This document shows positions 4,665 through 29,642 of a stretch of 64,000 bases of DNA, one piece after another (positions within the stretch are counted from its first letter, which is position 1; each line of letters opens with the position of its first letter). The stretch comes from Chrysoporthe austroafricana. Lineage: Eukaryota > Ascomycota > Sordariomycetes > Diaporthales > Cryphonectriaceae. Location: positions 2,970,383 through 3,034,382 of the forward strand of contig JYIP02000004.1 in assembly GCA_001051155.2 (NCBI GenBank). Direction: 5' to 3'. Both the position numbers and the translations under genes were made by a program. The notes beneath the pieces were generated by a model that saw nothing but the letters and a program-made list of their open reading frames with translations, did not search any database and was not told the origin of the DNA.

Positions 4665-4880
4665 TAAGCCAGCCCAATCCTCCTCATAACGGTGCCCGGC
4701 GACACGGGAAATAGCTGCGGTTGTCGCAGCGCCGACTAGAGTTACGATTGCCATGGTTGGCATCCTCATAGCCTCTCTGATCAAACCTGTTGAGCCAGTC
4801 CAGATTCTCTTCCCCGCTGTGCTTAGCAACACAGGAAAGATTGGCGAGGTTTGTTGCGCCGACCACAGTAGTGGTCATCG
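4665..4880 (-). repeat. Imperfect tandem duplication of the motif-X segment
   Basis: Unit 1 (4880-4791, minus strand) and unit 2 (4756-4665) align over about 90 bases. Translations run in parallel: TTTVVGATNLANLSCVAKHS against AIVTLVGAATTAAISRVAGH, followed by EExxDW in both. Confidence 0.5.
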
Positions 4881-9363: not shown

Positions 9364-12300
9364 TCATCGACTGGCTCTCTTTCTCCACTGGTCACCAAAC
9401 TCTTCCAAATCTACACACATCCTCAACCCCTTTGTTGTCATCGTATGCCACACCGATCGGAGCTCACTGCTCTCCATGTCCCGCACAAGCGTCGTAAAGG
9501 CCTCCATGGCCAACGTCTTGGACCAGGGACAGGCGCCGAGCGCCCTGTAGAACACGTCCTTGGCCTTCTCGCCGCCCCGGAGCTCCTTCTTGCGCCCCTC
9601 GGAGAACCGCACGTAGCTGAGCCACAGCCCCAGGTTGGCCCGGCACGCGTTGCTGGCGAGCGCGCGCTCGAAGGCCGTGCGGACGGAGTGGACGCTGCCG
9701 ACGTGCATCTCGTGCCGGATGGCGAAGAGCCGGCTGGTGATGCAGTCGTGGGTCTTGGTCAGGACGTGCGTGCGCAGGAGCGTGCGGACGGGGTCGTTGA
9801 TGAGGATGCTGGTGTCGGCCCAGGCGAAAAGGGTCAGGAAGATCGTGTTGGAGGGGAAGAGGGCGATGAACCTCTCTAGCTGTTCGCGGAGGTAACTTGG
9901 CCGGAAGGAGCCTCGGGTGGCGTGAAGGTAGAGGAGATGCGTGGCGAACTGAAGGTATCGCTCGAGGTGGGCTGAGGTGCCGTGGCCTCGAGCGGCGGCC
10001 TCGGATGCAAATGCATGGGCACTAGCCATGGCCGTCTGTATATCTCCCTGCCGAGAACTGGTGGGCCCTGTCGAGCCGGCGAAGGGGGCAGCATACTCCA
10101 GCAGTGAGGTGGTCTCGGCAAACAGCGCGGCCTGCGGGATGTCCCCCGATGAGAGGAGAAACTCGCGACGGGTAGAGAGCGTTTGCCGTGCTTTCAACAG
10201 CTGGCTGTACGTTGCACCGGACTCTGCACCGCTTGGCTGGTGACTCCCGGCCGCCGCGATACAGTTGGCAAGAGCGGCCTTTACGTCTCCTCCCTCGAAT
10301 TCCAGCCAAGCCCATGTGGCCCACAGGCGCTCCTTATCGGGTAGATTCTGACTTGTGGCAGACTTCAGAACGTTTCTCGCCACGTCTCGATTTCCATTCC
10401 GCCATTCTGCAACAGCATAAGCGTTGTAGAGTGAGGTATTACCAGGCCACCTTTTCAAGAGTGCTTTTGCCGGTTTTCTGACAGCAGCTGGGTTCTTGAT
10501 GTATGCTAGCCCCATACTGTACTCTGCGATGGGCTCATAACCAAGGTCGGTGGCTAACTGCGTCACGGCTGTAAGAACCAAGTCAGACTCGGCCGACGGA
10601 ACAGGATCGAAGAATCGAAACCAGTTCAGTCCCGAGAAGATGGTGTCTGCAGATCCTGTGAACCGATGCCCCGGGTCTGCGAACCTTGGCGGCTGCTTTT
10701 TGCCGTCCTCAGCGTCATCACGCGGTCCAGAGTTCCACCCTTCCAATTTTTCGCTGTCGTGGTAGAGGAACGGATCATAACACATGTTGTGAATCCACTC
10801 GCCTGTGCTGTCAAGCGCAGCAGGTAGCCGACAGAATAGGAGGAAGGCATTCAGAATAGAGGCTCTGACTCTCGGCAGATCGGCAACGGCCGTCGGAAGG
10901 TAAAACAACAGCGGCTGTAGGTCAGCAAACATCACCACCCGAAACGGGTCATCGTCAGTGCCCTCATCAAGCGTCCTAGCAGGCAGCGCTGCAGTGCGAC
11001 TCCTCTGCGTCTCCACGGCCGCCCAGGCTTTGTAGACGTCTCTCGTCTCCGGGGTGCTTGGCGCATCGTCTGTCTTCGCCTGTGGCAGGGCTGGAACCTC
11101 CTCCGCCTCGCAGTAATTGCGCCAGCCCTTTGCCTCTCCCTCGCCGATTCGCGGGACTTCGCTTTCCCAAAATTCCTCGAACGAAGAGCTCATATCAGCA
11201 GCGCTGTAGTCGCCCTCCTGCGCGGGATGGGCAAAGGTGAGCTCCAATACGGCCTGCCATGCGGCGACTGCGAGCTCAGTATAGCCCGAATCACGAACGA
11301 AAGACGTCGTTCTGAGGAAGACGTAGATCAGCTCCCCGAGGATATGTATTATCCAGGCATCACCATCTGAATGGCAAATGTCCTCCAGAGACTTGCCCTG
11401 GTTAGAGTCCAGCGCAGTACGAACGGCCTCCGAGACCCGTTGCTGAAGAAGTTGTAGCCGCTCGACGTGTATCTGCTTAATTCCATCGTACGTGTAGGTA
11501 GCCATGTTGGAGAGCTCATGCTCCAGATGAGCTTTCCACAATGCGAAGCTGCAATCCTCCAGGTCCGTCTCCGCCCAGCGCTTGGCAAGCACTTTGCTGC
11601 TCCAGACACGAGAACCCTCCCGCATTACCCTGAGGAATAACCTCTCCTTGTCCGCCTTGGCCGTGAAGTGAGGCAGGGCTTCCTCAAGGAGTGAGATCCT
11701 CATGCTGGCTAGACCCCTGACCTCGTCGTCCGTCAAATCTTGGCGCGCGTCCTCACTGAGCTTGAGCAGGTCCTCCTGTATGTCAACGAGCTCAAGCCAC
11801 GCTTCGATATCCGCTGGATGGTCCTTGACTCGAAGTGATAGCTCGGTGGACCTCTGCCTGACGGGATGCGATGAGTCAAGGTCCGCCTCGGCCGCAGAAT
11901 CTGAGGTGTCCGCAGATTCCAGGTCGCTGTCTACAAAATCGCGCGGCTTGGCCTTTCCCTGGATGGACCGGTAATTGGGATCCTCATCTCCTGAAATGTC
12001 ATAGGCATCTTCTCCAGGATCTCCGGACCGGCGGTGCCCAGAAAGGGGAAGGAAGTCGGCTTCACCATCGGGTATCTGTGGCTGCTTCTGGTCCGACCCT
12101 GGACGCAGTCTGAAGACCCGGGTCTTCTTTCGAGACGCCTTGGACAGGAGCGTCCTGTCACGAAAGGCAGACGTCCCCTCCCCGAACCTGTCGCCGAGGC
12201 TGAACAGCTCCTTGGAGCCATCGTGGATGAGGCGGAGACGCCCCTGGCCACCGAGCACCCTGCCGGAGCCAGAGCGGCGGTAGGTGGGAACCTTGGAGCG

Positions 12301-12639
12301 GTCGTTGGACCCATACCTTACGATCAGCGGGTCTCCTCTCTTGTCGACGACGTACAGAGGGTCCTCTCGAGCTGCCGGGTGGGACGGCCGCCTCTCAGGA
12401 CTGCGAGACCGCCGGCGATCATGACGGCCACGGTGAGAGTGGGGCCTGGCGTCCCTGCTGCGATGGGCGTCAGGCCCAACACGCTCTTCATGGCGATCGC
12501 CCTTGCCGCGGCCCTTGTCAGATCGGGAAGACGGGTCTGGAGAAACTTCGGGCCTCGGTTTGAACGAGGCGAACTTCGGCACGGCCAGCTTCTTCTTGTC
12601 CATGTCGCCTCCAGGTCCGGATGAGATAGGAGAGGCCAC
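9364..12639 (-). CDS. nrl1: NRDE-2/Nrl1-family nuclear RNA-processing protein
   Basis: An intronless ORF of 1091 residues. The N-terminus has KKLAVPKFASFKPRP, then a charged Arg/Ser/His-rich low-complexity region to about residue 90 and an acidic patch with VDSDLESADTSDS. After that comes the NRDE-2 domain, opening with LRVKDHPADIEAWLELVDIQ, a HAT/TPR-like helical array that fills most of the protein. In fission yeast Nrl1 works with the helicase Mtl1 in splicing of cryptic introns, R-loop control and heterochromatin; animal NRDE-2 acts in nuclear RNAi. A nuclear role is expected here too. A second in-frame Met at residue 13 (MDKKKLAVPKF) may be the true start. It is a housekeeping gene bordering the accessory island. 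Confidence 0.85.
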   Translation of the reverse strand: MASPISSGPGGDMDKKKLAVPKFASFKPRPEVSPDPSSRSDKGRGKGDRHEERVGPDAHRSRDARPHSHRGRHDRRRSRSPERRPSHPAAREDPLYVVDKRGDPLIVRYGSNDRSKVPTYRRSGSGRVLGGQGRLRLIHDGSKELFSLGDRFGEGTSAFRDRTLLSKASRKKTRVFRLRPGSDQKQPQIPDGEADFLPLSGHRRSGDPGEDAYDISGDEDPNYRSIQGKAKPRDFVDSDLESADTSDSAAEADLDSSHPVRQRSTELSLRVKDHPADIEAWLELVDIQEDLLKLSEDARQDLTDDEVRGLASMRISLLEEALPHFTAKADKERLFLRVMREGSRVWSSKVLAKRWAETDLEDCSFALWKAHLEHELSNMATYTYDGIKQIHVERLQLLQQRVSEAVRTALDSNQGKSLEDICHSDGDAWIIHILGELIYVFLRTTSFVRDSGYTELAVAAWQAVLELTFAHPAQEGDYSAADMSSSFEEFWESEVPRIGEGEAKGWRNYCEAEEVPALPQAKTDDAPSTPETRDVYKAWAAVETQRSRTAALPARTLDEGTDDDPFRVVMFADLQPLLFYLPTAVADLPRVRASILNAFLLFCRLPAALDSTGEWIHNMCYDPFLYHDSEKLEGWNSGPRDDAEDGKKQPPRFADPGHRFTGSADTIFSGLNWFRFFDPVPSAESDLVLTAVTQLATDLGYEPIAEYSMGLAYIKNPAAVRKPAKALLKRWPGNTSLYNAYAVAEWRNGNRDVARNVLKSATSQNLPDKERLWATWAWLEFEGGDVKAALANCIAAAGSHQPSGAESGATYSQLLKARQTLSTRREFLLSSGDIPQAALFAETTSLLEYAAPFAGSTGPTSSRQGDIQTAMASAHAFASEAAARGHGTSAHLERYLQFATHLLYLHATRGSFRPSYLREQLERFIALFPSNTIFLTLFAWADTSILINDPVRTLLRTHVLTKTHDCITSRLFAIRHEMHVGSVHSVRTAFERALASNACRANLGLWLSYVRFSEGRKKELRGGEKAKDVFYRALGACPWSKTLAMEAFTTLVRDMESSELRSVWHTMTTKGLRMCVDLEEFGDQWRKRASR

Positions 12640-12894
12640 GAAGGCCGCCTGAGGCTACGCACGGAAGGTCGTGGGCCTCCCAGGAACCACTGCAGATGTC
12701 GTCGATCACTTGGTTCCAGACACTGAGTGTGGAGCGCGGCCGATGGAGTGCGTCGCCATGGGCGGGCGATATCTCGAAGCGCCGGAAGCCTGCTGGGCCT
12801 GGAGCGCGGGGGGGATGCGTCAGACTGCAGGCGAGATTTTCTCGAGACGGGCCAGGGCCACAGGTCCAAGAGCCAACGGTGAGCAGCGTTGGCC

Positions 12895-12934
12895 AGGTGG
12901 GGACGAAGTTCAAAGAAGTGCCAGCTGTGACACT
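12895..12934 (+). repeat. Left copy of a 40-bp direct repeat
   Basis: The stretch beginning AGGTGGGGACGAAGTTCAAA recurs at 13162-13200 with one missing base and two substitutions. The pair encloses the dispersed repeat copy at 12950-13167. Confidence 0.8.
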
Positions 12935-12949
12935 GGCAGGGTCGGTGCG

Positions 12950-13167
12950 ATGTCGCGACGGAGCCTCATGAGAGCTCCCAACCCGAACCCTGGCGAGTGT
13001 GGATGACTTCAGCTAAGGCCCCCCTGTCGCCCCCCCCCCACAATGGGCCTTCTCTTCCTCTGGCGGAACGGAATCCTGAGGGCGACCTACCAACAATGCG
13101 ACCACGCAGCAGTCCTACGAGATAAGTAGTGCTCGGCACTCGACCTCGACGGGGTCTCGAGAGGTGG
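12950..13167 (+). repeat. Dispersed repeat, copy 1
   Basis: About 220 bases match 29410-29642 in the same orientation. Shared blocks include GAGAGCTCCCAACCCGAACC, GGCGGAACGGAATCCTGA, GCGACCACGCAGCAGTCCTA and TAAGTAGTGCTCGGCACT. The opposite strand stays open over part of both copies, but conservation looks DNA-level. Type unknown: no transposase or clear inverted ends. Confidence 0.85.
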
Positions 13168-13200
13168 GGACGAAGTTCAAGAAGTGCCAGCTGAGGCACT
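13162..13200 (+). repeat. Right copy of the 40-bp direct repeat
   Basis: See the left copy at 12895-12934. It overlaps the right edge of the dispersed repeat by a few bases. Confidence 0.8.
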
Positions 13201-13313
13201 AGCCATCCCGCTGACTCAGCTCCCTCCCGATGCGGTATAGCGTCCTGCTGCGGTTCCTCGCCACACGTTCTCGTACCGTGTATGTCATCTACCACGGGAA
13301 TGCCTCTTTTTCT

Positions 13314-13601
13314 CTAGTGTGTCCCAAACCTGTGGATCGAAGAGCCATTCCTTGCCAGGGGAGCGGGAATATCGCCGCGGACCAGTTCCACCATTACATC
13401 CCGGATAGCCCGGACCTCTTTGGCTGCCTCCAGACTGCTAAGACCATACGCGAACAATTCCTCCCTCATGTCCTTCTCGACCTGTGTCCGGGTGGTGGGG
13501 CTGGCCAGCGCGATCGATTGGAAGTATGATGGGTATACGCGGCTCCTGTGGTCTCTCGCGGAGGTCAGAAATAGCTTCTTGGTTAGCATCCTCATCAGCA
13601 T
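13314..13601 (-). pseudogene. Possible C-terminal coding fragment, family unknown
   Basis: The minus-strand frame contains about 85 residues of plausible amino-acid balance (around RVYPSYFQSIALASP and EVRAIRDVMVELVRGDIPAP) and ends in a stop. No upstream exon or start was found in the neighbouring sequence. It may be a leftover gene end next to the island boundary, or chance. Confidence 0.25.
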
Positions 13602-13850
13602 CTGGGGAGGCTGTGGGAAAGCCTGATAAAAGGTCGGCGGCCGGCCAGATAGAGTGCCGGTTGCAAGGGTACAAAGGGGCGTTTTTTGCTCGCCTGTATG
13701 CTAGATTTCTTTCCCTCTAGAGAAGAACCTAGACAGCCGTTTCCTACCACCGGAATAGTACAAGATGTAACCAAAAAGGGCTATTCCCTTCAGAGGCGAG
13801 ATTGATAGCGAGGGAGCCTCTAGAGCTAGACGTACAATGTCAAACCAATC

Positions 13851-16800
13851 CTAACAGTGTTCTGTTTCGTATTCCAAAGCTTCCGACTCTGTCGAGCTTG
13901 ATTCGTCACTTTCACGATCGTTAGCCAGCATAAGCTCGATAGCTTCGTCTGTTGGACCTTCAATAACCTGTCCCGGAGGCGGAAAAGCGCACGCCACATA
14001 CTGATCCTCTTCGATGTTGAGGGAAATGAGTTCCTTAGCTGTCAGCGCACTATCAACTCCTGGCCAGCAACCTTTGGCGGCCAAGTTCGGCTTCTCGCGA
14101 GGAAGCCTCTCAAAGTAATCTGGGACGCACATCCGACATGCGAGGTGCAGCTTTGTGATCCCCTTGAATAGGCCGTCGCCCCGCGCCACATGCCACTCGA
14201 GCAGCTCAACGGCCACTTCCATGGCGTGTGACATCATCGCACGCATCATTATGTTGTCTGTGTTGGACTCTTCTGCGAGGAATAAACTTCGCGCATGTGT
14301 GCATGCTAATTGGAGAGGCAAGGCTGATAGCCCGTCTTGTCGGAAGGGTATGCTCGCATCGGCGCCGGCTTCCAAGAGGAGACGCACGCTTGGACCGTGC
14401 AAAGCGAAAGCGGCTTGCTGGATCAGGGTAGTGCCGCTTTGGCCCGTTGAATTAATGTGCCGGGAAAATCGCGGGTGGGTGAGCAGGCGGCTGAATTGAT
14501 CGCGCGCGTCCGCCCGGAACTCGGGATCCGTGCGGCCTTTTTTGGGAGGTAAGAGATGCCCGTGTAACTGAATGTGCAATATCATGTGCAGTGCTTCGAT
14601 ATAGATCTCTTCTGAAAGCTCGCGCTGCAGGAGGATATCGAGTTTTCTGTCGCTCTGGATGCGCCCAGCCAGGAGCCACTCTAACGGACTCTGGCGGGTG
14701 ATGGGGTCTTTGCCCAGCAAATTTGCACCGAACTCGACTAGCAGCGATAGCATTTCGATGGAAGCCCGGATTGCGATAGCCTCATGTATGACCGTCGACA
14801 TCGTTGTACCTGCCACTGCGTGCGGCTTGTTGACATCGACCCCCTTCTCGAGCAGAACCCGTGCTCCAACGACCGAGTCGGAATCAATAGCAGAGCTGAG
14901 ATAATCTCGTTCCCACACCGAGACGGGAGTCTCTAGCTCTTGTAGCGTGTAGAAGTCAACCAGCTTTTCCAGTATGGTTGCCCAAGCTACTTGGTGACCG
15001 GCTCTCTGGAGAGCCATACTGAGAGCGGACCGACCAAACGAGCCAGGCGTTGTATGTCTCACATATGACGCCGGGGAGCTGCTTATAACAGCTTCAATCA
15101 AACAAAGGTCGTCTTCTGTCGAAGCGTTGGCGATCAAATTCTGGAGATCTGATGACCCATCGTCGCAAAATCCGACGACTTTGTAATCGACGCACAGCCG
15201 GACCGTTTGAAGTATTGCAGAAGCACGGCTGTTTCCGTGGATAATCCAGTGAGCAAATGGCCTGCTGATGGGATGGAGCCTGATGAGGAAATTCGGTGCA
15301 TCTGGGTCTTTGTGGAATCGAGGGGGAAGTTCTTCGAGAATGTCCCAGTAGAAATGCTCAAGCGCCGTGAAGACGCACTGAGGTTCTATGTCGTCATGCT
15401 GAGGAAGAAGTAAGCGGACCAAATCCCGGTACCGTGCTGTGATAGCCCAACGGAGCGGTGTCCCTGTCAGCGCTATGTCGTGAGCATCACACTTGATCTC
15501 ACCAGTGGACGATACCTGGATGTGTTCGCCGAGCAGTAAGCTTACAGCGGCGCTCAGATCCTCGGGTGCGAAGAAAATGCTGAGATGAAGCGGAGTAACA
15601 TGGTGGAAGCCTGCGATCGCCAATGGAACATCTTGCCCAAGAAGATATGTCAGGGTAGAGAGGTGCCCACCAAAGCAGGCAAAGTGTATGGCGTTGAAAC
15701 CGAGGGCCGACTTGGCATGTCGAGGTGTATGTTGAAGAAGATCAGCCAAGACATCATCCCTTCCAAGCCATGCAGCCACATGAAGTGGCGACAGATCATC
15801 TACTTCAAAGTTATTGAAGATACATAACTTTATTGTCGATTGCATTGAAGGGCTGGAGCATAAAGTCGAATCGACGAGGCTTGGATTGTGTCGGGCAGTT
15901 TCCATAGCGCGACGGCTGAGAAGGTGAATTCGCTCTATCAGGTAGCGCTCAGTTGCAACTAATGATAAATGTTGCTCTATGGAGAGCTGGTCTCCGGCAT
16001 TCGGGATAGCCTCAGGCTCAAGACTGGCGGCAGCAGCGACGCGATAATACCACATCTTAGCTTTGTCGTAGCCTTGAGAGGCAGCTAGGTGCAGCCACTT
16101 GAGAACTTCCTCCATGCTGAAAATCCCGCCGAAACCAATAGTGTAGCATTCGGAAACGGTCATTGCCGCGTGTGCGCGAGTTTCTTTGGGAATTTCTTCG
16201 CTGGTACCGAGAATCTTCAACTCGGAGAGAATGCGTAACCTTATCTCGAGAGGAAGGTCGTCGGCAATTTTGGATCCGAGAAATAGAGCGTTGTCTAGGA
16301 TCTGTTTACATTGCTAAGCATCTACATAACAATGAGATTCAAGTATTTTTCCTACCTCATAGAGTGTGTTGTGAGCGGTCCAGCTCGCTATAGAGTTGCC
16401 TCCCGATAGTAAATCAAATATATCAACCGAGCTGTCAACGCTAGAAGTATCTTTCCTGGGGCAGAATTAGCTGATGTCTTTAATCTATTTCGCGCCCGTC
16501 TAACTTCACCTTCTGTTCAGCACTCAGGGACTTACTCTAAGGAGCTTTCTTCGTCTTGTAAAAGTGCAGCCAATTCTGACATATGCTTCCTCAATGTAGG
16601 CTCTTCTTGGAGGCAGCCATCCAGCACCGTCCCAAGGCGGATTCTGATGCCCTCTGGTGCTGCAAATTCACTAGAAAATCTAAGAGCCAGAGCGATGAGC
16701 TTGGTCCCAGACGCGCGGTTGAGGAAATCTTCTATCAAGTCGACGTCTTTCCCTCTGGGGACGTGACCAATCCATTCCAAGTCGAAGAACCTTTGGCCAC

Positions 16801-17632
16801 CCTTCATCACCTCCCATGCAAACAGACCAAACGAAAATACGTCGGTCCGCATCGCAGCGTCGATGTCAAAATCTGCATCTTGCAGTGCAGTGCCGCGTCT
16901 GATTTCCGGCGCTTCTAGCAGCCGCGTCCCCACCGGGCAGGGAACCCTGCCATGCGGATCGTCGTGTACAGCAATGATGGACTGCCCAAAATCCGAGATC
17001 TTGAGTAGCCATGTCGAATCCTCTCTCGCAAACACCAGTGCATTCTCAATCTTCACATCACCATGACATACCCGGAGTCGATGGAGAGCATCCAGGCCCT
17101 GACTGGCTTGTCGGACGAAGTCTAGTTTTTGTGCCGCGTCCAGCTCTCTGCTATCCTCTCTGAGGAACGCAGCTAGGGTTCCGGAAGATGAGTATTCCAG
17201 CACAAGCGCCAAGGTTGGGGAGTTGCTGAAATCATCGATACAGATGCCGAGAACGTCAATAATGTTGGGGTGTTTGCGCAGGCTGTGATGGCCGATGATG
17301 CGCAGCTCACGAGTGAGCTGATCAAAGTCTCTCGCTGTGCTCTCTCGATCGTGGTCGCTGGCTTGGACTATTGAGAGCTTTCGGCGTTGTTTCACTGCAA
17401 CCAAATGCTTATGCGGCAGGCGTGCCCTGCCAATCTCGATATTAGCGTAGCCACCACGACCAGCCACTCGAACCGAAGGTTCCTGAAGTTTGAGATCAAA
17501 GGACGTATAGAATTCCAGTTTGGTTGATGCTACCGCCGAGAAGAAATTCAGAGCCGTTACAGAAAGAGCAGAACCGTCCTCATTGACGCCTGTCGTGTTC
17601 CCCACGGAGGTGGACCAGAGGGAGAATGACAT
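13851..17632 (-). CDS. Protein kinase with C-terminal ankyrin repeats (island, copy A)
   Basis: Predicted exons are 17632-16536, 16455-16356 and 16301-13851; phases agree and give 1215 residues. Residues about 50-340 are a protein kinase: Gly-rich loop GRGGYA, VAVK Lys81, Glu109 of the C-helix, HGDVKIEN with Asp192, DFG Asp214, then APE at 241-243. The catalytic residues are all present, so it should be active, with HGD instead of HRD. From about residue 400 follows a short helical region with an AAMTVSECY motif, then two blocks of ankyrin repeats (for example LHVAAWLGRDDVLADLL and TPLHLSIF). The tail has KGCWPGVDSALTAKEL. It is a diverged paralogue of the gene at 24941-28618 and has one intron more. 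A sensor or signalling role is likely; the target is unknown. Confidence 0.85.
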
Positions 17633-18671
17633 GTTCGACTTGGTATATGATTATAATAAATTACTTGTAAGCAGACCTTACTCAAGAAGCTGAGCGAGAC
17701 ACGCTGTTTCAAAAGCTTGGCAGAGAGGTATGGCGTTCCGTTCTTTGCGTAATGCTTATTAGTACGCGAGCTAGTCCGAGAGGTCGTTGTTAGATATAGT
17801 GGAATGTTAGTGGTGTAAACGAAGTAAATAGCGTCAGCACTTGCGGATGCCGGCGACTTTTAACAACAGGTTGGAGAAATTGCGGAGTGGTCATTCAATG
17901 CCGCAAGCAGGCAACGAGGCAGCAATTTGAACGCATCCTAGCCAGAAAGGGGTGGCTGGCTGATGAGGGAGTTTCGCATTGCCACGTCAGATAGGCTGGG
18001 AAAAGAAAGTACACGGCACCGTCTGATCGTTACTGTGCAGGAGCCTTCTTTTTCTATTACTACCGCGCTTACTCGTTATTTGATTCCAAACAACCTTTCC
18101 TGACACAGCTTTCAAGAAAGACTATTTTAAAATATCAATCTCAGGCTGGTCGGCTCGTGAAATCTCTATAATGCTCTCGATAGTTGCACTGCCGATCTCG
18201 ACTTCTTTCTTATGACCAGCTCTATCTCCAGCTCTGTCAGCACTGCTACCGAGAGAAACTACTGTACTGCTAACTGTTTCCTTGATATCTCTACTTCCTC
18301 CAGTCTAGGAGCCTCACCGACCTCTTCACCAGCCTCGGCATGATCTCCGAGATCAACTACCTGCACGAGAACCCCGAGATCGAGGCTGTTATGACCACAA
18401 AGGAAGCAGGTCACTGGAATAGGCCGGCCCGGGAAGGACCGAAGCATGTGGACACGGATGCAATATCTTGGGACAAGCATTAGGTAACCAAGGGCTGGGG
18501 TCAGCATAGACAAATTAGATTGAGCTCATTGAGGAAGCGATGGGCAACGATGGGCCACGACGGTCCGTATTGAGCTACCTACTATTACAATGGTCAGGGA
18601 TCCCAAATGGTAGCTCGGCACTATGCCTAGTGCCCGAAAGCCTGTGCAACAGATTGTATATATTACTTTCA

Positions 18672-18901
18672 AAATATATAGAAATGCTACTAAGAGTTTG
18701 GTTCTTTGTTAAATCACCTTCCAGACTTTCCATTAGCTTCCACGAAAACGACTCCGGAATAACTTCTTATGCTTCAACCACAGCTGCTCAAAGAGCTTTA
18801 CCTTTCAGACAACTTATAGGATCTTTTCTATGAATATATTCTTTCATCCAGCGCCATACGTTTTCGATCGGATTAAGATCTGGCGATCTTGCCAGCCACC
18901 A
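18672..18901 (-). mobile_element. Relic of a Tc1/mariner-type transposase C-terminus
   Basis: The minus strand reads WWLARSPDLNPIENVWRWMK, the signature around the last catalytic acidic residue of the Tc1/mariner DDE superfamily. It continues about 55 residues with two in-frame stop codons. The N-terminal and central parts are missing and no terminal repeats were found, so the element is dead. Confidence 0.8.
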
Positions 18902-19284
18902 AATTGTTCATCCGCCCTGCAGGCTCCCAACGTCTCTGCTACGTACCACCCCGCGGTTCTGGCGCCGTCTGTGTTGAGAAACCGCGTCTCGCTCCTGGCT
19001 GGGGACACGGAACAGGTACTGCTGTCGATGACCCGGTGGATGCCGGTCGAGGACGGGAGACGGAATCTCTTAGGGACAAAGTAGGTCGGGGAGTACTTCT
19101 GAAGAGGTTGAATGGGCTTTGTAACCATCACGCCAATAGAGACAGCTAAGGGAAGAAGGACAGGAACAAGGGGTGGGCGGTAGAAGTTCGCCGTTCTTGC
19201 ATTGTAGTTGGCGACCAGGCGCCCAATTCGGACAGCATGAACACCATTCTGCGGTTCTGGTCAATAGTCCAGTTCATTCATGGG

Positions 19285-19286
<2 letters not shown>

Positions 19287-19358
<72 letters not shown>

Positions 19359-19366
19359 ATATATAT
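19287..19366. repeat. Compound (AC)n(AT)n microsatellite
   Basis: A run of about 15 AC units passes directly into about 19 AT units, then ends in a short imperfect tail. Confidence 0.95.
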
Positions 19367-19688
19367 GTCTTATTTTCTGGTATGAATCTCATTTGCTGTC
19401 TGCGAAGTTTTTATTATTTGTCAAGAATGTTTCGTTCTTCTGGATTGGAAAGGCAAAGAACAGTAATACCGGCTCTGAATGAATGTAGCATTTGTTGACT
19501 TGAATACGTTTGTACTGCTATGCTTCTTTTCATCATATAATTTCTTCGATTTATCATTCAACCAAGATGCAGTACAGCTGGGATTATTGCCATCATTCGA
19601 TGCCTGATTGTGAGCTATTCCTTGTGAAATATACTCTGATATGCCATTTTCTCGAACATAATCTCTGAAGTTGAATCACAAACTGCTA

Positions 19689-20160
19689 TCAACCACGACT
19701 GATCAACTGCAAATCCCTCTCCGCAACCTCACGGCCATTATTGACTAGCTTTCCTGCCTGGTCACTGAGAATGTATACCTGAACCCGCACGACACGAGCA
19801 ATAAGGAATGGCCCGGTGAGCGCGCGCCCAGATTTGAGGTAAACGCTATCATTAACAAAATAATTGCTCTGATGTCATGTCAGCTTTAAGCCTCGCTGAC
19901 TGTCAAGAAAAAGGTAAATAGTAATCAAGCAGAGATGCACAGCTACATACCTGTACCTTCGCTACCACTCGCGGCCTCACCTCGTCGTTCTCAATCACAT
20001 CGACTAGCAGGGGCGGATTTCCATATACCAACGCATCTTCACTGTTCGCCAAGAACAGGTCGTTAGATAGGTAAGACGAACTACACTTGTCATTACCGCC
20101 TGGGGGAGATATCACGCACGATGTTTCAGACGTGGTGCCTGCACTTGCCTGATCAGCCAT
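19689..20160 (-). CDS. Small conserved-type fungal protein with a possible SH3-like barrel (island)
   Basis: Two exons, 20160-19951 and 19868-19689, give 129 residues. The intron has donor GTATGT, branch GCTGAC and acceptor CATCAG, and both sides are phase 0. The first exon has a Ser/Thr-rich start and SEDALVYGNPPLLVDVIEND followed by RPRVVAKVQ. The second has YFVNDSVYL, TGPFLIARVVRVQVYILSD and NNGREVAERDLQLI, alternating short hydrophobic strands that resemble a small beta-barrel of the SH3/KOW kind. I believe similar small proteins occur in other ascomycetes, but I cannot name a domain. It lies between kinase gene A and the DUF6594 gene, divergent from the latter, so it may belong to the same module. 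Confidence 0.6.
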
Positions 20161-20254
20161 TGAATTGACTATGGTCCCAAATGTTCTATTGTGGGGGTGA
20201 TGAGTGTAGGATGGATCCTACCGTCCAAAGGGTGCTAAGGAACAACAGAGCCGT

Positions 20255-20255
20255 C

Positions 20256-20292
<37 letters not shown>
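20255..20292. repeat. (TA)n microsatellite
   Basis: A run of TA units with one C interruption, in the 612-bp divergent spacer between the small protein gene and the DUF6594 gene. Confidence 0.9.
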
Positions 20293-20634
20293 TAAAAAGA
20301 CACAGTACTGTCCTACCCAACCTAATAATCAGGCAGCAACACCCAGAAACAGCATCTTTCTATGGTTGGTGCCTAATGCCGTATGCAACCCAAGAATGCT
20401 ACGGTTGTGCCGCCTTGCTGCACTGGCTTAGGTAGATATGCGAATTTTGGGTCGATAAGCAGGCCTAGCTTAACATGGTATAAAATCCACAGATCGCTGC
20501 ATCATGCACTACGACAAGCGGCGCGAGAAAGCCGAATTGGGGCGAGAGCGGGTGAGAAGAGGGGGGGGATTGGTGGGTTTTTTTTAAACGAAAAAGGAAG
20601 CCTCCGTCGCCAAATCCTAGAGGATTCACGCTGT

Positions 20635-20642
20635 ATAAAAAG
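20635..20642 (+). promoter_or_regulatory. TATA box of the DUF6594 gene
   Basis: TATAAAAA lies about 130 bases before the ATG at 20773 in the divergent spacer. Confidence 0.5.
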
Positions 20643-20772
20643 GTGCATACCATTTCAATTATTTTTGACGCGAAGGCCTCTTCTCAAAATCCCGCACTCT
20701 TTCGGATGCTGACCCAGAAATAGTATTTTCAGGTCAACTATTCACACCGGGCATCTATCTGACTATACCAAC

Positions 20773-21944
20773 ATGTCCCAATCTGGTCTTCCAGCTCCCA
20801 ATAGCAGCCATGTGGCTACCACATTCAAGTTGAGTAAGCAACTTGTCACGATACCCATCCTCCTTTTCCGCCTTAGCCTCCGCTTTTTTCTGCTGACGTT
20901 CATGTGTCATAGTCGAGGACTATCCTGCCGGTTACCCGCGATTTTCCGCCCTGATCTCCTCTCATCCATCTTTCCAGGTGGCTCGACAATTTTCAAACTT
21001 ACGCAATCGAATTTTGTTGGAAAAACAGGATGTCCTAGCCCGCCTCGAAGAACGGCTGGAGAGGCTGGACGCTAGTGAACAGAGACTGCTTTTTCTCGGA
21101 TGTCTGCGACGAGACAACAACGACGAGCGGAGGAAGGTTCTGGTAGAGATTGACCATGCCCTTGTTGACTATGGTCCGTCTCAACCTCACAGATTTCTGG
21201 GACCTGATAATATCTATTATCTCGACAATTGGCACATCTAACACAAGGATTCAGACTCCTTCCTATTACGCAACAAGGAAATCATGAAATACCAGGCGGC
21301 AAAGCAGAGGGACAAGTCAAATTTACAGAACTGGCTGAAAGAGAATGGCTGCATAGCTCGAAGCGAAATTGAGTATCTCGAAAAAGACGACCTTCTAGCT
21401 TTAGGAAACGTTGATGCGGATGCTATCTACAGTTCCTTCGAAAGTTCCGTGGAAGATGCCATGATTTCGCTTGGGGCAGCAAGGTCGTTCAATAAGGTAA
21501 TTACTCGCTACTTGACATTACATATTTATACGGACCTGTTGGCTAAAATTTGTCTTCTTTTGAACAACAATTGGTTAGAGCATGACCAAGCCGATATCCT
21601 CAAATGCAGGTATATACATATTTCGACACGGCTTTATCAGCGCGGTGACCAGGTTCATTGTGGCTTTGGTACCAATTGTGGTGCTTTTTGCCCCTATGGT
21701 GATCATTCTGAATTTGAAAGAATTCAAGGCTAGACTGGCAGTCGTTCTGTCTGCTCTGTCTGTTTTTGTGCTATTGCTCTCGACATTTGTTCATTTGCGG
21801 ACTGGGGAGTTGTTTCTCGCAGGCTCGACGTACGTTCCAAAGTCCCTAACAATGCTTACCATTCTCTGCATCACACTGATATGAGAATATAGGTACGCAG
21901 CCGTATTAGTCGTCTTCATATCACAGTCTGGAGTTGCCAGTTAA
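20773..21944 (+). CDS. DUF6594 family membrane protein (island)
   Basis: Five exons: 20773-20833, 20913-21173, 21255-21496, 21579-21829 and 21893-21944. All phases agree and give 288 residues. The body shows the family pattern: GYPRFSALISSHPSFQVARQ, a coiled helix LEERLERLDASE, then LRRDNNDERRKVLVEIDHAL, VDYDSFLLRN and LKNW-like LQNWLKENGCIA. The C-terminus, from GIYIFRHGFISAV, holds three hydrophobic segments (residues about 205-285), so the protein is probably membrane-anchored with a large N-terminal domain inside the cell. DUF6594 proteins are abundant in ascomycetes and often lie near incompatibility-type genes; their biochemical role is not known to me. The stop is 57 bp from that of the convergent caspase-like gene. 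Confidence 0.82.
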
Positions 21945-22001
21945 ATGTATTCAAGCGTTCTACGTGTAGATTCCTAGTGCTTGATGATGATAAATGTGAC
22001 T

Positions 22002-24404
22002 CTAGGCACTGGCAGCTTGCAGTAAGTTCAAAACTTTCTGCCTGACCAACCTTAAAAGCTGCCAGTCTTCATACTGTCTCCAATCCTGGCTTCGCAGACA
22101 GGCCGCTACTGCGTCAGCATATTTCCTTCCCGCGGCGTGGGCTAACTTCTCGGCTGCTGCACGAAGCATGAACTGTCGAAGTGTTTCTGGATTAGTAAGA
22201 TGATCCCAACGCTGCCCTCTCTTATCCATATCTGGGAGAGTCCTCCAGCACCCAATCTCCAGCAGGAGGATACCCTAGTTAGACAGCAAGTCAGCGCCTA
22301 TTCTGACCCCTTAAAGGCCGAAAGACAAGACAGCGTGTAGATCTTGTCCACGCTAGCACTAGTTGTGGCAGGCGAACTCACAAGAGAGTACAGGTCATGA
22401 TGTGCTTCGAAGTTCACTGGTCGACCCCAACGATCTGGATGCCGGTAAATATTGTTTTTGGTCGAGAAGTCGACAGTGTTCCTCGTTTCAGCTTCCGCAG
22501 GCCGTGAGGTGTCGAATCCAACAAGAAACGGACTTTCTATGTCCCAGTCGTCGAAAGACTCCGCCTGAGAATTATTTCGATTCTTGGAAAAGATAACAAT
22601 GTTATGGCTCGTTAAGTTCTTATGAAACCACCCGATGGAGAGTAGGTGTATGACGGCATTACAAAGACAAGCAGATAGATTATTTCGTAATTCCAGAGGG
22701 ACGACCTTGAGTTTCCGTATCAGGTTGTCCAAAGAAGTAAAAGAGTGGTCGGCGTATTGCTCCGGAACTTGGTAGACGATACCTAATTTGGCCTGGCCAA
22801 GGGTATTGCGAGTGAAACCTAGACCTTTCATGCACCTGAAAGCTGAGTCCTTTGGCTCGGACTGCAAGGCGGCAATTCTCCTGATCTGGCGAGCTGTCCA
22901 AGTGAATGAGCTGGGATCGGTATCGTCATAGTTGAAGTACTCGACCATGACTGTGTATTCCCCTCGCCTTCCTAACCGCAAACGCCCTTGTGAAGGATCC
23001 GAGTGCTCAAAGTCGACGCGCATCCCATTGTCGCCGTCGTCGGAGATGTCTTCGTCTGCTGTAATGGCGAGACGCATGCCGATTCGATTCCTCAGTTCTT
23101 CAAAATTTGGCCCCGCATCATTGCGTATCTCGTCGAGAGAGCCCGGGTGGAGTTGGGTCAAAGAATCTGCTACGAATGCGAGCAGACCCTCTGAAGAACT
23201 CCTAATGGACTCAATGATTGCCGTCGGTTCTAACTCGGTTGGCTGTCCTGACGTATTGAGACCCTTCAGGGCATCTTCCAAAGACTTGCAGAGTCGACGC
23301 GCTTCCAAGCTTCCTTCCGGGGACAACAGAGCCCCATTTTCCTCCTTGGAAAGTAGCTTGGAGCCTATGTCGTTGGTTCTATCCGCGTCCGACAAGACCT
23401 GACGCACCAGCTGGATATCCTGAATTGATGTAGGAGAATCTTTGGTCATCCATTGCACAAGAGACATGGCCACTTCCGAGTCGATGTTGTTGAAAAGGGA
23501 CAGTCTAAAGTATATGTCCATCCCTTCCTTTTGCTTGGATGGTGCCGTTGTGAGAGGGAGCATTGACTCCGGTGCGCGCTTCAGCTTGATGGCACCCGCG
23601 CCTCGGTCACCACCCCCAAGTACGACGTACAATGGCTGTCGCATAAGACGATGTTCAGCCTGGGTCATACGCCTATGAAGTTCCGAAATCGTGACTTCTC
23701 CATCCTCGGTCATCATTTGCCGCGCTTGTTCCATAAGCACCGCTGTGAAGGACGGGGTGCCTTTCAAGCCAGTACTCGTGTAGCTGTCCTTGTCTGCGGC
23801 CGCCAGAAACTCCACGCGTTGAGAAGATCTGGCTCGGACGGCCTGGCCTGCAAAGCAACAATCAAGGATAATGATAACATCACAGGTGGCCAGAAAGAGT
23901 TGTGGTTGAATGCGATCCCAGTCCAAATCGGGACCATCCTTACGCTTTCTATGAGGTTTGGTCAGTCAGGAAGGAGACTCATGAGGTAAAGTGTTATGAA
24001 ACATTATGAACTCTTACTTACGCGGCCCAGGTACATGGACTCTTGGTCTCCACGTAATCCCCGTGTCCAGCGTAATACACAATCAAGAGGCACTGCTCGC
24101 CTCCATAAGAGGCCACTGATTTGGTAATGAATGAGCTAAGTCGTATACCAGAGTTTTCTGAAGGGATGTTAAACCGCCAGGTTTTATAGTTGAATACTTC
24201 GCGGAACATGTGCTCAAGTTGGTCTACCTCGGCTGAGACACCAATATCATCTTCCTTCCACGTTAGAAGTAGTACATTGACAGCAGAATAACGATGAATC
24301 CGCCTTGGCTGATACTCCGCTAGCTTGTCGGAAATGCCCCTCTCGGCGATGCCGTCCACAAGACATCCTGCCTTCCCGCCTTCGTGCCCAAGACTAGAAT
24401 CCAT
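22002..24404 (-). CDS. Caspase-like peptidase fused to a kinase-like domain (island)
   Basis: Exons 24404-24022, 23948-22382 and 22274-22002 give 740 residues in consistent phase. Residues about 40-270 are a caspase/metacaspase-type (C14) domain: VLLLTWKEDD strand, catalytic His114 in YYAGHGD, and Cys159 in IILDCCFAGQA. A linker of about 200 mostly helical residues follows. Residues about 450-740 form a kinase-like fold of the type seen in fungal incompatibility proteins. It keeps LGIVYQVP, FHKNLTSHNIVIF, YRHPDRWG and HDLYSLG, but has no HRD or DFG, so it is probably a pseudokinase. Proteolysis is likely its activity; the trigger and substrate are unknown. Fusion of these two domains, and its place between two kinase-ankyrin genes, points to regulated cell death. 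Confidence 0.85.
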
Positions 24405-24940
24405 TTCTTGTAAGTTGCGGGTGGGTAGCTGTTATGAAACTCGGTTCTTTGATCGTTTCTCTTCTGGGGGGAGAAGAGGTGGTGTGTCAGGAAAATGGAG
24501 TGACCACTCCCACTGGCTGGAAATGACGAAGGTCTTATATAGCTGTGTGGCCAGGCCAGCGCACTTGGCTGAGCACAGGCGGGGAACCGGGAGGGACGCT
24601 TGCAAAGCAATGGTACTGCCGGTAGACTGTACTCAATTAATAATATCTGCATGCTGCATTGGCTGCACCGGGTGGTAGTACCACAGTAATTATTCAAACG
24701 TATTATCTTGGCGAATATGCCTGGGCTGACTAAAGCCTGCATGCAGACGCATCATTGCAACCTAGAGCTGACCGGGCAGCTTCCCTGGGCTCCCTCAAAC
24801 AAGCCCCCTCTACTGGCATTCACATTCAGGGCACCAAATACTTGTGGTGGGCACTAAGTCCCCGCTGTCCTTCAAGCCTCGCGATACCAACTCAACTAGC
24901 TCGCAGACGAGGTCAACTGAGCTATTAACCTGATGTAATT
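24405..24940. other. Divergent promoter region between caspase-like gene and kinase B
   Basis: A 536-bp spacer shared by two genes transcribed away from each other, so co-regulation is possible. No ORF of coding character. Confidence 0.6.
24534..24541 (-). promoter_or_regulatory. TATA box of the caspase-like gene
   Basis: TATATAAG on the minus strand, about 130 bases before the ATG at 24404, the same distance as in the DUF6594 gene. Confidence 0.5.
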
Positions 24941-27900
24941 ATGTCTTCGATTTCTCTCTGGATGACCGAGAGTAGCGAGATGTCCAGGCCTGCTTGTGAA
25001 AATGCTACTCGGCATACTCCGGCACGTCATGCTCCCGCCTCATCTACGGTACTGAACCTCCTCGATTTGATCCTGAGCAAGAACTTGGCTCTGTACAACC
25101 AAAGCGATCTGGATTTCGAAGCTTCTCAAGGCGTTCAGCGCCCTCCTTCAGCGGGGTCGGGGGGCCACGCCACGGTCGAGATTGGAAAAATGAAAAGCGG
25201 GAAGGTGGTTGTCGTCAAGAGTTCTCGAAAATCAGCATTGTCCGAGGACTTACCTGTTCCTCGTTCTACTGACAGCTATCTGCAGCACTTAATCCTCGAG
25301 ACACAAATATTAACTCACAGTCATTTGAAGGATCATCGTCACGTTGTCGACATCTTCGGCCTCGCCATCAATAATTCCACCACCCTGGCGTCTCTGTCGA
25401 TCGTCCTACAATACTCAAGCCTGGGCAATCTATCGTCTTTCCTGCGCAACAAAGGAGAATCCCTCAATGCCGGTGACAAAATTGAGCTAGCCTGCGACGT
25501 GGGTCGTGGACTTCAAGCCTTGCATGAGGTCCATATCTGTCATGGCGATGTGAAAACTCAAAATGCACTCGTATTCGTCGACAACGGAAAATTCATTGCC
25601 AAGATTTCAGACTTTGGGGAGTCCATAATTGTAGCACAAGATGATCCGACGGGTATTGTGCGACATCCTCCTGGAACGCCCTTGTTGAATGCGCCAGAGC
25701 TTCGACAGAGCCATGGCAGGAATGCAAACTTCACCATCAATGAAGCAATGCAAACAGATGTCTTCTCCTTGGGTCTTCTCCTATGGGAAGTATTGAAGAA
25801 TGGCCGACCGTACTGGGAGCCTTCGTGGGTCGCTACATCGAAAAAGAACGAGATCGATGCTGGAGCCATGGAATCGTTTCTGGACGGATTGCATCCCGAC
25901 GCTCTTCTCGAGTACGGCCTGAATTTCATTCTAGAGCTGAAAATGGATCTAGAGTACTCGAGGAGAGTTGCCCTGACAATGCGCGGCTGTATTCGAGACA
26001 ACCCGAACGACCGACTCCTTATTGCTGAGATTGTTCACAAACTGTCACCGACATGTAAATCATTGAACGACGAGATTCGAGGAGGCCAGCAGAGTGGCCA
26101 TGACACGCAACCTGTAACGGCATGGGCTTGCCAGCAGACTCTGATACAGGTACGCTATCCCAGCTCTATTTGCTGCAGTTCGCACCGCTCTGGCACGGCT
26201 AGAGCTGCTGCCCCATGAGTCCAAAATATCACAGCAAGAGTACATGCAGTACGTGCTGGGAACACCTGCTAATGCAACACTTTGTAGCTCCTAGAAAAAC
26301 ACAGACGCGCCTATGGGTCGCGCAGACCGAAATTGCCGAGGACTCTTGAGCAGCACATGGTCGAAGAGCTGAAAACTGTAGCCACTGATCCGGTGGTACC
26401 GAGAGAGTTCCGTGCCCAAGCGGCAATGACCTTATCCGAGTGCTACGCCATCGCTTTTGGCACAGAGAATAACGATAATGAGGTTTTCCGATGGATGCGA
26501 CTCGCAGCCACTGAAGGCCACGAATTGGCATTGCTGTGGTCCGAAAGAATTGACGAGGCCATACATCGCGACAAAGTCCCCTGTGCTGATGTCTCAAAAG
26601 AACAATATTTGTGCAGGATGATCTCTCAAAACGTGGAAGATTCGGTACAGAAATTCAAAGAGGCGTTTGACTCAAGTCAACTTCCCCACCCGGATGCCGA
26701 ATTCCATGTCAAGCTTCTGAACGAGTCGTTCGTTGATACAGTTGAACCCCTACATTTGGCAGCATTGATGGGGGACGGGGTTGTAGTTACCAGACTTCTC
26801 CGTACTACATCTCCCCAAATATGCTCGACTGCTGGCTTTAATGCAGCTCACTACGCATGCCTTGGCGGGCAACTTTCGACTCTGAAAGTACTTCTTGAGC
26901 ATGGTACAGATCCGTCCTGCATTGGCGCCTACAGTATCACTCCACTTCATTTCGCAACGTTTTTCAAACCAGAGAATACTGTTGCAGCGGTCCAAATTTT
27001 GATCAAACACGGCGCTCGTACTGATATCCGATCAGATTCAGTCGAAAACGTCAACTTCAACATGATTCTCGAGGGAGTTCCCCTGGATTGGGCTGTCGAA
27101 ACGAGAAATCGACTCCTGGTGCAAGCTCTGCTCCCTTATACAACAGAACATGTTGGCATACAGATGGCCTTCTCTTTATTCTACTGGGAGATCGCTGAAG
27201 ATCTCCTCCGTCAGCAGTCTGCTGTCATGTCGCCAGTACAACTCTGCCCCGCATTCAACATCTTCAGAGTCAAGCGGTCAGTGGTGTTTCTGTACTGGAT
27301 AGCGCATGGGCGGGATGGCCCCGACGCAATACGTCGCACTATAGAATGTGCTCATCACTATGGGCTCCTGAGCCCCGGAGACGCTCTCAAAAGAGCGACA
27401 ATGACCAGTCATGCACAGGACGGCGATCACATTATCGAGTCTATATTGCGCTTCTGCAACAGCTCTGAGGTGAAACGCTCGACGCGAGGGTACCAAGAGC
27501 CTCTTATGTTCGTCATGTCGCAAGTACACCGCCAAAGCGGCTGGAAGCGAGTGATTGAGATGATGGTGGAGCATTACACTGTCGACGAACTTCAGCGTTG
27601 CGCGTTCCGGAATCAGCTCACCTACTTGCAATACGCGGTCTGGATAGGCTCAACGGTCTCTGCGAAAGTCCTGCTCTTGAAAGGGGTGGACGTAAACCAG
27701 AGAGCCCAGGGCGAGCGGGCAGACCAGTGTACGGCATTGGACATCTGTGCCATGGCCAATGCTTCTACGGAGATGTGGTCAATACTGCTCGATCACGGAG
27801 CAGATATCAATGAAGAGACTGGAGGCTTCACGCCATTAGAGCGCCTTTTGATTGTGAAGGGCACGGTGGAGCCGAGGCTTCTAAGTTTGATCCTGGAGCA

Positions 27901-28618
27901 ACCGGAAGCCGACAATACACATTGCAGGACTCTGCATCGTCTTTTTGCGATGGAACTGATTGTCGGGTCTGGAAGACGAAGCAGGATCACCGGTCTTGTT
28001 CAATGGGTCCTTTCTCGCGAATCCACAGCCAGACATATCAACTCACCTGATGAGCGCGGCGTGAGAATGTTGGATAGGGCAGCACTCTACCAACGTCTTG
28101 ACCTGGTCAATATTCTTCTTGACGCAAACGCTGACGCAAGTATACCAATCGCTATGCTGGACGGATTTCCCATTCTCCCCTTGCACATCGCCATTTTTAT
28201 GTCTAAGCTCCTAGATATCGAGCCAAGGGGACTCAATACGCCCATGGACAGGGTCCAGGCGACCGAAAGCTCTCAAAGTGATAACGATATCCAAAGAAGA
28301 ATGAGGTGGAACTTGTTGAACGTAACTATGGCATTCATTGACTGGCACCGTGCACGAGGTACCCAGCTCTTTGAGGGCATCACAAAGCTGCATATAGCAT
28401 ACTACATGGACGTCCCCGACCTTGTGGAACAGCTGATCGCGATGGGTTTCGACAAAAGCGCCAAAGGGGTCTGGCCAGGTATCGATGGTGAAGTTACACC
28501 AAACGAATTGCTACTTTCCGATCGCATTCATAAGGAAAAGGAACTATTGACAGAAATGATTGTCAAGTTGAAACTAGATAGCAAGAGATGGGAATCGGTA
28601 ATGACGAGGAATGCTTAA
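24941..28618 (+). CDS. Protein kinase with C-terminal ankyrin repeats (island, copy B)
   Basis: Two exons, 24941-26149 and 26288-28618, in phase 0, give 1179 residues. The kinase covers about residues 70-370: AGSGGHATVEIG loop, VVVVK Lys93, Glu120, HGDVKTQN with Asp203, DFG Asp224 and NAPE. As in copy A, HGD replaces HRD and all catalytic residues are kept. The second exon begins like copy A, with AQAAMTLSECYAIAFG, then ankyrin blocks such as LHLAALMGDGVVVTRLL, TPLHFATFF and VNILLDANADAS, and ends near KGVWPGIDGEVTPNELL. Sequence identity with copy A is modest although the layout is the same, so the duplication is old or selection has driven divergence. It diverges from the caspase-like gene over a 536-bp spacer. 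Confidence 0.88.
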
Positions 28619-29409
28619 GTTCACAAAAGGTTAGCCGCAGGAGTAGTTGTGATGAACTGCGAGAAATGGGTGATTCATCATTAGAATTACATACATCATA
28701 CCATAGTCCCTGCATTGCCCTTATATAGGAGACTTTCCGAGAAGCCCAATTATAGCCCACTTTCTTCTCATATATCTCCTCTTGTCGCAGTCTCTTAGTC
28801 AGACACCTGTAACACTCCCTATTCTCCTCGCCTTGCAGCATTTGCTAGCACTCTAGGCATATAGCCGTTCACCTTGCCCTAGCTCCTGTATATGCGCCGG
28901 GCTTGCGCTTCTTTGATCACCCCTATTGTCTTTAACGGACACCATTGCTTGCATGAGGTTGTGTTTGAACATTAGCAATGCGCAATATTGACCCTAACGC
29001 TACTCTATATAACACCTATAACACTCTACGTATCAGTGACTACATTCAAGTCTCAAGTTATGTTAATACTATAATAAATTCAAATGATAGGTGGTATATG
29101 TAATGAGCACTGCCTATACGCAAGTAGCAAGTGCCTCAAAGGTTTACGCTGGGCAAGAGCAGTGGAGTACTATCTGCCGTACACGGAAATACGATCAATA
29201 ATTCTTGGGGTGCGAGGTACTTATTAGCTGTGTGAGGAAATGCACCTAGATTGACGACTGAAGAGTCCTAAGGCAATTGTTGTCCAAAGTCCATCCTTAT
29301 ATGTCCAGCTCTTCAGTTCCAATTTGCTTGGATCGATGTCGAGCCCATCGGTCTATTTCCGTACAACCCTAATCTTGACTACGTAAGCGACTCCCAACAT
29401 AAGAGACTC
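28619..29409. other. AT-richer spacer downstream of kinase B
   Basis: No recognisable gene. 3' flank of kinase B, up to the second dispersed repeat copy. Confidence 0.55.
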
Positions 29410-29642
29410 AATGTCGCCAGAGCCTTATGAGAGCTCCCAACCCGAACCCTGGCGGGTCTGTCTGGATGGCCTCAGTCAAGCCCCCCTGTCGCCCCACACC
29501 CCCCCCCTTGATGAGCCTTTTCTCTCTGGCGGAACGGAATCCTGAAGGCGACCTGCTAAAGATGCGACCACGCAGCAGTCCTACGAAATAAGTAGTGCTC
29601 GGCACTTGGCGGTGTCGACCTCGACAGGGTCTCGAGAGGGTG
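29410..29642 (+). repeat. Dispersed repeat, copy 2
   Basis: Same orientation as copy 1 at 12950-13167. Most blocks are conserved, with several indels (extra bases near 29455 and near 29617). The 40-bp direct repeats that enclose copy 1 are absent here. The two copies stand outside the two ends of the kinase-caspase block. Confidence 0.85.

Follow-up and report, generated by a model that had tools for sequence, protein, structure and literature searches.

Between the genes for NRDE-2 and a CLC channel, two kinase-ankyrin genes (KAL and KAR) enclose a gene for a caspase-like protein with a kinase-like domain (CASP), a DUF6594 gene and a small predicted gene (SMALL). Do these five genes serve one cell-death pathway, and if so, how might it be switched on? 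We analysed the block within a window of 64 kb, the whole stretch of DNA under study (C17:2970383-3034382 of a genome of 48.15 Mb in 22 contigs). Protein searches with KAL and CASP placed the best relatives of the block proteins in filamentous ascomycetes.

The block and its flanks

The gene order from left to right is KAL (-), SMALL (-), DUF6594 (+), CASP (-) and KAR (+), with KAL at the left end and KAR at the right end, both oriented outward (Table 1). An earlier sequence-only reading had placed these five genes between NRDE-2 and the CLC channel, and gene models and Pfam recovered all of them as described; introns in our exon models are GT-AG and the frames are full-length. SMALL and the DUF6594 gene are divergent with 612 bp between them, and the DUF6594 gene and CASP stand tail to tail with a gap of 55 bp. 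Pfam scans detected no NACHT, NB-ARC or HET domain in the five block proteins, and the 64-kb window contains no Rfam match to a structural RNA at curated thresholds. A HET-domain ORF (PF06985, 1.2e-25) lies some 27 kb beyond the right end of the block, next to a SAM-domain ORF and another ORF that has no Pfam match. Between KAL and SMALL runs an open stretch at 18300-18480 (+), LTDLFTSLGMISEINYLHENPEIEAVM, which is perhaps a stray piece of another gene. CA/TA microsatellites are found on either side of SMALL (19285-19370 and 20250-20292).

Table 1. Features of the window, ordered by position (position 1 is the first letter of the window)
Feature	Position	Strand	Remarks
NRDE-2 ORF	9364-12654	-	Pfam
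43-bp repeat bracketing the left direct repeat copy	12895-12937 and 13162-13203	+	none found at right copy
Left direct repeat copy (~220 bp)	12950-13164	+	blastn; upstream of NRDE-2
KAL	17632-13851	-	3 exons: 17632-16536, 16455-16356, 16301-13851; 1215 aa
Decayed transposase remnant, putatively Tc1/mariner-type	18700-18905	-	six-frame translation; SPDLNPIENVW, then stops
SMALL	20160-19689	-	predicted; exons 20160-19951, 19868-19689; 129 aa
DUF6594 gene	20773-21946	+	5 exons; 288 aa; PF20237
CASP	24404-22002	-	exons 24404-24022, 23948-22382, 22274-22002; 740 aa
CASP/KAR divergent intergenic region	24405-24940		536 bp, from gene model ends
KAR	24941-28618	+	exons 24941-26149, 26288-28618; 1179 aa
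Right direct repeat copy	29411-29639	+	blastn; upstream of CLC
CLC channel ORF	31154-32770	+	Pfam; start near 30761 by eye
HET-domain ORF and two adjoining ORFs	56376-57599; beside it 55114-56328 and 58851-60380	- (HET-domain ORF)	Pfam

The direct repeat of about 220 bp that had been noted outside each end is present, its left and right copies being identical in 190 of 234 columns (81%, with 24 gap columns; blastn, E 2e-61); at this level of identity the flanking duplication looks old. A repeat common throughout the genome would have spoken against a discrete unit, and an 83-bp core of it matched two sites, the two flanking copies, in a whole-genome DNA search that passes over very common words. 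On this ground we rejected a common transposon end as its source. The repeat is consistent with an insertion event in which intergenic DNA was duplicated. For the 43-bp repeat that brackets the left copy, the genome search returned no further copy elsewhere. The transposase remnant inside the block was assigned by its SPDLNPIENVW motif, which we take to be that of a Tc1/mariner-type element. In 2-kb windows, the GC content is about 45-55% in the block, as against about 57-66% in the flanks next to it, and it is also about 50-51% at 4-8 kb of the window, outside the block. Block and flanks do not differ sharply in their RIP indices.

Domains and active-site motifs

KAL and KAR both carry a kinase domain and ankyrin repeats (Pfam), separated by a stretch that is Sel1-like by eye; Pfam scored Sel1 only in one homologue, below the cut-off. 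The two proteins share 32% identity over 1180 columns, and in a tree of kinase-ankyrin proteins, which like the motif table samples 22 of the 43 proteins found with KAL plus KAL and KAR themselves, KAR forms a lineage separate from KAL. A recent duplication was rejected for these two reasons. In the aligned columns the catalytic Lys is kept in all 23 covering rows, and the loop Asp and the Asp of D-x-G in all 22; the Phe of DFG is substituted in four rows, two of them from CASP-linked proteins. A strict pattern search recovered VxVK in 19, the HGD loop in 15 and DFG in 18 of 24 sequences, but it misses variants, and the aligned columns are decisive. By these motifs, the kinase-ankyrin proteins have the intact catalytic residues expected of RIP-type kinases. 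The best PDB matches of the KAL kinase include TNNI3K, with tyrosine kinase and Eph chains scoring equally.

CASP proved to be the caspase-like protease with a kinase-like domain that had been described, with Pfam scores on either side of the cut-offs: its C-terminal domain matches DUF7580 at 31.1 bits (cut-off 27), and its caspase domain matches PF00656 at 19.4 bits, below the cut-off of 21.4 that its relatives P0063, P0066 and P0067 exceed. A profile of the caspase part only gave no PDB match at 0.01. In the alignment, Cys159 (in DCC) is invariant in 11 of 11 rows, and His114 (in GHG) is present in all nine of the 11 rows that reach it; CASP thus possesses the catalytic His and Cys of C14 caspase-like peptidases.

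The kinase-like domain has fared differently from the kinases of KAL and KAR. All 11 CASP-type sequences have lost the Lys (Glu464 in CASP), the HRD Asp and the DFG motif, and by these losses the domain is a dead pseudokinase. The sequence-only reading had overlooked both its dead state and its MLKL-like profile match, and with them the contrast to the intact kinase-ankyrin partners. In the PDB, two sequence profiles match MLKL best (5.8e-6 and 2e-8). Structure searches with the model of a CASP homologue found the kinase fold and did not single out MLKL, which is absent from the best 50 rows of either list; these lists are filled by kinases and inform on the pseudokinase part only. In phmmer, one CASP homologue gave matches with a best E of 0.05 or worse, including GCN2, metacaspase-1, RIPK1 and MLKL. 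Pfam, the alignment and the homologue fold place the caspase-like domain at the N-terminus of CASP and detect no HeLo or four-helix-bundle killing domain there. CASP may therefore work like MLKL, but we do not class it as MLKL, because it lacks the N-terminal four-helix domain.

The DUF6594 protein matches PF20237 (5.8e-48), and its hydropathy profile shows hydrophobic segments towards the C-terminus, two of them strong and one borderline. An AF2 model of a homologue is of low confidence (pLDDT 60, pTM 0.39). SMALL, with no Pfam match, second copy in the genome or PDB match, is the weakest gene of the block, an unsupported prediction from its open frame.

Linkage of kinase-ankyrin and pseudokinase genes

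The searches with KAL and CASP returned 43 and 24 proteins, respectively, each among the best 7994 word-sharing candidates. Among the matches listed, five of the ten named species with a CASP relative that covers half or more of CASP (Didymosphaeria, at 27%, was left out) carry KAL- and CASP-type relatives on a common contig, as judged from species, contig size and locus tags rather than from maps. The relatives are two locus numbers apart in Fusarium gaditjirri (FGADI_13096 and FGADI_13094, on a 25-kb contig) and in Biscogniauxia marginata (F5X99DRAFT_406802 and 406800, on a 562-kb contig). In Cercophora samala (50 kb), Lasiosphaeris hirsuta (603 kb) and Mollisia scopiformis they share a contig with their order not given, that of Mollisia being long (2.8 Mb). 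The CASP-linked kinase-ankyrin proteins are spread over the tree and come from fungi that we take to belong to several orders. Among the same matches, Cosmosporella, Ophiobolus, Neonectria, Thelonectria and Trichophaea have a CASP relative and no kinase-ankyrin match, and several Fusarium kinase-ankyrin proteins stand without a CASP match. By these data the linkage of KAL and CASP looks real.

For DUF6594 the picture is different: none of the 24 matches listed in a protein search lies on a contig of a kinase-ankyrin or CASP match. The kinase-ankyrin protein P0022 from Gyalolechia, presumably a lichen fungus, has the first 86 columns of DUF6594 at its end (Pfam), and this part breaks off about where exon 2 of the block DUF6594 gene ends. 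We read P0022 as a gene model that runs into an adjacent DUF6594 gene, and regard DUF6594 as a weakly supported member of the module. The sequence-only reading, in which all five genes act together, is partly supported, by the linkage of kinase-ankyrin genes and CASP. Its own counter-scenario, in which relatives carry the same genes scattered and unlinked, does not hold for KAL and CASP but may hold for DUF6594, save for the one Gyalolechia model, and for SMALL.

Within this genome, a search with KAL at E 1e-10 matched KAL, KAR and one kinase piece on C20 only. Domain searches yielded at least 133 kinase loci (145 matches; 141 of 186 candidates scored), at least 67 ankyrin loci (159 matches; 150 of 310 candidates scored) and at least 14 loci where the kinase-like domain is CASP-type or DUF7580; further matches inside the same gene were left out of the kinase and ankyrin counts. 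We refer to the 14 as pseudokinase loci, the loss of catalytic residues being verified in the CASP family, in CASP itself and at C1, C2 and C19. All distances were taken from one domain match to another rather than from gene ends. Four kinase-ankyrin genes (KAR, C1:2546752, C2:234169 and C20:398535) satisfy an automatic rule that asks for ankyrin repeats downstream of a kinase on the same strand, and a pseudokinase match lies within 3 kb (1.2-2.9 kb) of all four. Further such genes may be missing, because the rule missed KAL. With KAL added by hand, five of five kinase-ankyrin genes lie at most 12 kb from one of the 14 pseudokinase loci, versus three of 128 other kinase loci (P 1.7e-7; per locus 2.9e-6), and a kinase lies within 12 kb of six of the 14 pseudokinase loci, versus 0.9 expected (P 1.7e-4); these tests assume an even spread of genes and overstate the association if accessory genes cluster. 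Of the ankyrin loci listed without a kinase, one in 63 is near a pseudokinase. Eight of the 14 pseudokinase loci, among them the HeLo-pseudokinase gene at C1:5964k, have no kinase within 12 kb.

The domain that precedes the pseudokinase varies from pair to pair. The partners at C2 (1.4e-32) and C20 (3.2e-8) carry a HeLo domain, and the N-terminus of the C1 partner has no assignment. On C19 (L043, C19:3003000-3012999), a single frame of 819 aa at 2280-4736 (+) joins a kinase (2.6e-25) that keeps its catalytic motifs to a C-terminal CASP-type pseudokinase, and is, to judge from these motifs, a naturally occurring fusion of both partners. DUF7580 scores below the Pfam cut-off at C2 and C19, and the pseudokinase assignment there rests on the match to CASP (1.4e-16 and 4.3e-14) together with the lost motifs. 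At L041 (C1:2546000-2555999) and L035 (C20:394000-403999), the kinase-ankyrin and pseudokinase genes have an NLR-like frame next to them (NACHT by eye). Downstream of the DUF7580 gene at four further loci (L051, L052, L054 and L056) come subtilisin-like frames on the same strand (motifs by eye), and these loci probably encode proteins with a kinase-like domain and an S8 protease. One of the four, at C17:574k, is the locus that has an ankyrin-free kinase match 4.1 kb away.

Proposed mechanism and known systems

We hypothesize, with a probability of about one half, that the block encodes a kinase-to-pseudokinase module for regulated cell death, in which an ankyrin kinase would license an executioner that is gated by its pseudokinase and has a caspase domain in place of HeLo. 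KAL and KAR would be the sensors, their ankyrin and Sel1-like solenoids keeping the active kinase silent as long as no ligand or non-self variant is bound. Once activated, the kinase would engage or phosphorylate the CASP pseudokinase in the way that RIPK3 acts on MLKL, and the N-terminal caspase-like protease, which the conserved dyad suggests to be active, would be released or dimerised. We speculate that the protease cleaves a membrane executioner, for which the adjacent DUF6594 protein is the best candidate, and that the compartment dies, possibly in the service of allorecognition. Since HeLo-pseudokinase genes adjoin kinase-ankyrin genes at two other loci of this genome, the pseudokinase seems to be a shared trigger socket for interchangeable killing domains. 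More tentatively, filamentous ascomycetes may possess a modular death system in which ankyrin kinases are paired with MLKL-like pseudokinases that carry swappable killing domains (HeLo or caspase-like), and which this block would join to a caspase and a DUF6594 membrane effector.

Part of this scheme would survive if the core relay consisted of a kinase-ankyrin gene and CASP, with DUF6594 and SMALL as bystanders and with an unlinked substrate of the caspase, for example a fungal gasdermin. We consider this possible, if rather unlikely. It would account for the 24 unlinked DUF6594 matches and for a linkage outside the block that amounts to one read-through gene model, and proteases clustered with gasdermins are a known pattern in the part of PMC12881547 covered here; yet the tail-to-tail position next to CASP, and the Gyalolechia model with DUF6594 sequence directly behind a kinase-ankyrin gene, argue for a closer association.

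Two further explanations differ on what the kinases do, or on whether the genes have a common function at all. The kinase, or a kinase-pseudokinase complex, could be a restraint that holds the caspase off, in the manner of a toxin-antidote or guard system, so that its loss or mismatch after hyphal fusion would kill, as in het-type incompatibility. A single caspase gene between two divergent kinase-ankyrin genes, with CASP and KAR diverging from one intergenic region, would suit such an arrangement; the occurrence, among the matches listed, of kinase-ankyrin relatives without CASP and of the reverse speaks against it. We consider it improbable. We give still less credence to an accessory hot spot, in which unrelated fast-evolving genes came together by chance or insertion in a transposon-scarred interval and share no pathway. 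The transposase remnant, the flanking direct repeat and the lower GC content are consistent with it, as are the unlinked DUF6594 matches and the caspase (0/3) and DUF6594 (0/4) paralogues of this genome, none of which has a kinase or a pseudokinase at most 15 kb away. It does not explain, however, the linkage of kinase-ankyrin and CASP genes in five other genera, nor the kinase-ankyrin/pseudokinase pairs at three more loci of this genome and the one fusion.

Homology of HeLo and MLKL, two-gene clusters of a gasdermin and a protease, and fusions of proteases or HELL domains to kinase-like domains are described in the covered parts of four papers (PMC12881547, PMC10197012, PMC9815663 and PMC7849911), which describe no kinase-ankyrin partner gene. 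The covered part of PMC12881547 mentions fungal proteins that join HeLo/HELL to a kinase or pseudokinase domain, describing no kinase partner gene for them, and a protease with a kinase-like domain, a kind to which the subtilisin-like loci of this genome probably belong. In the covered parts of reviews including this one, the links to necroptosis in fungi are NLRs and amyloid motifs that act on HeLo domains, and PMC12881547 calls for further work on the extent to which necroptosis is conserved. Titles and abstract openings, in a literature set that excludes bioRxiv preprints and most subscription journals, contained no pair of a kinase-ankyrin and a pseudokinase-executioner gene and no caspase-pseudokinase protein, and a search of the same scope returned nothing on DUF6594 or DUF7580. 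Because that literature contains no such report, the pair of kinase-ankyrin and caspase-pseudokinase genes appears to be new within the known fungal regulated-cell-death clusters.

The block resembles the gasdermin-protease clusters (HET-Q1/HET-Q2, CHAT-TPR) in that a protease gene adjoins a gene for a membrane protein, but its protease is caspase (C14)-like and two kinase genes are added; Pfam, with no gasdermin-dedicated profile, found no S8 or CHAT match and recognised no gasdermin in the five proteins. With the HeLo/HELL-pseudokinase proteins, which at C2 and C20 also stand beside kinase-ankyrin genes, CASP shares the combination of an N-terminal death domain and a C-terminal pseudokinase, except that its caspase-like domain sits where HeLo would be. 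RIPK4 and ANKK1 are ankyrin-repeat kinases, and like them and TNNI3K, KAL and KAR combine a kinase with ankyrin repeats; the order of kinase, Sel1-like stretch and ankyrins is different, and we claim no orthology. A further parallel is with RIPK3 and MLKL, where an active kinase is likewise combined with a pseudokinase-bearing executioner; MLKL is also the best PDB match of the two sequence profiles. In contrast to that system, the executioner of the block begins with a caspase-like domain instead of a four-helix bundle, its kinases carry ankyrins, its genes are physically linked, and the structure search with a CASP homologue does not favour MLKL. If our hypothesis is correct, an ankyrin kinase encoded next to an executioner with a pseudokinase gate would provide the kinase step of a necroptosis-like death in fungi, the replacement of a pore domain by a caspase would mark the pseudokinase as a reusable switch, and the RIPK-MLKL principle would exist in filamentous ascomycetes in the form of adjacent gene pairs.
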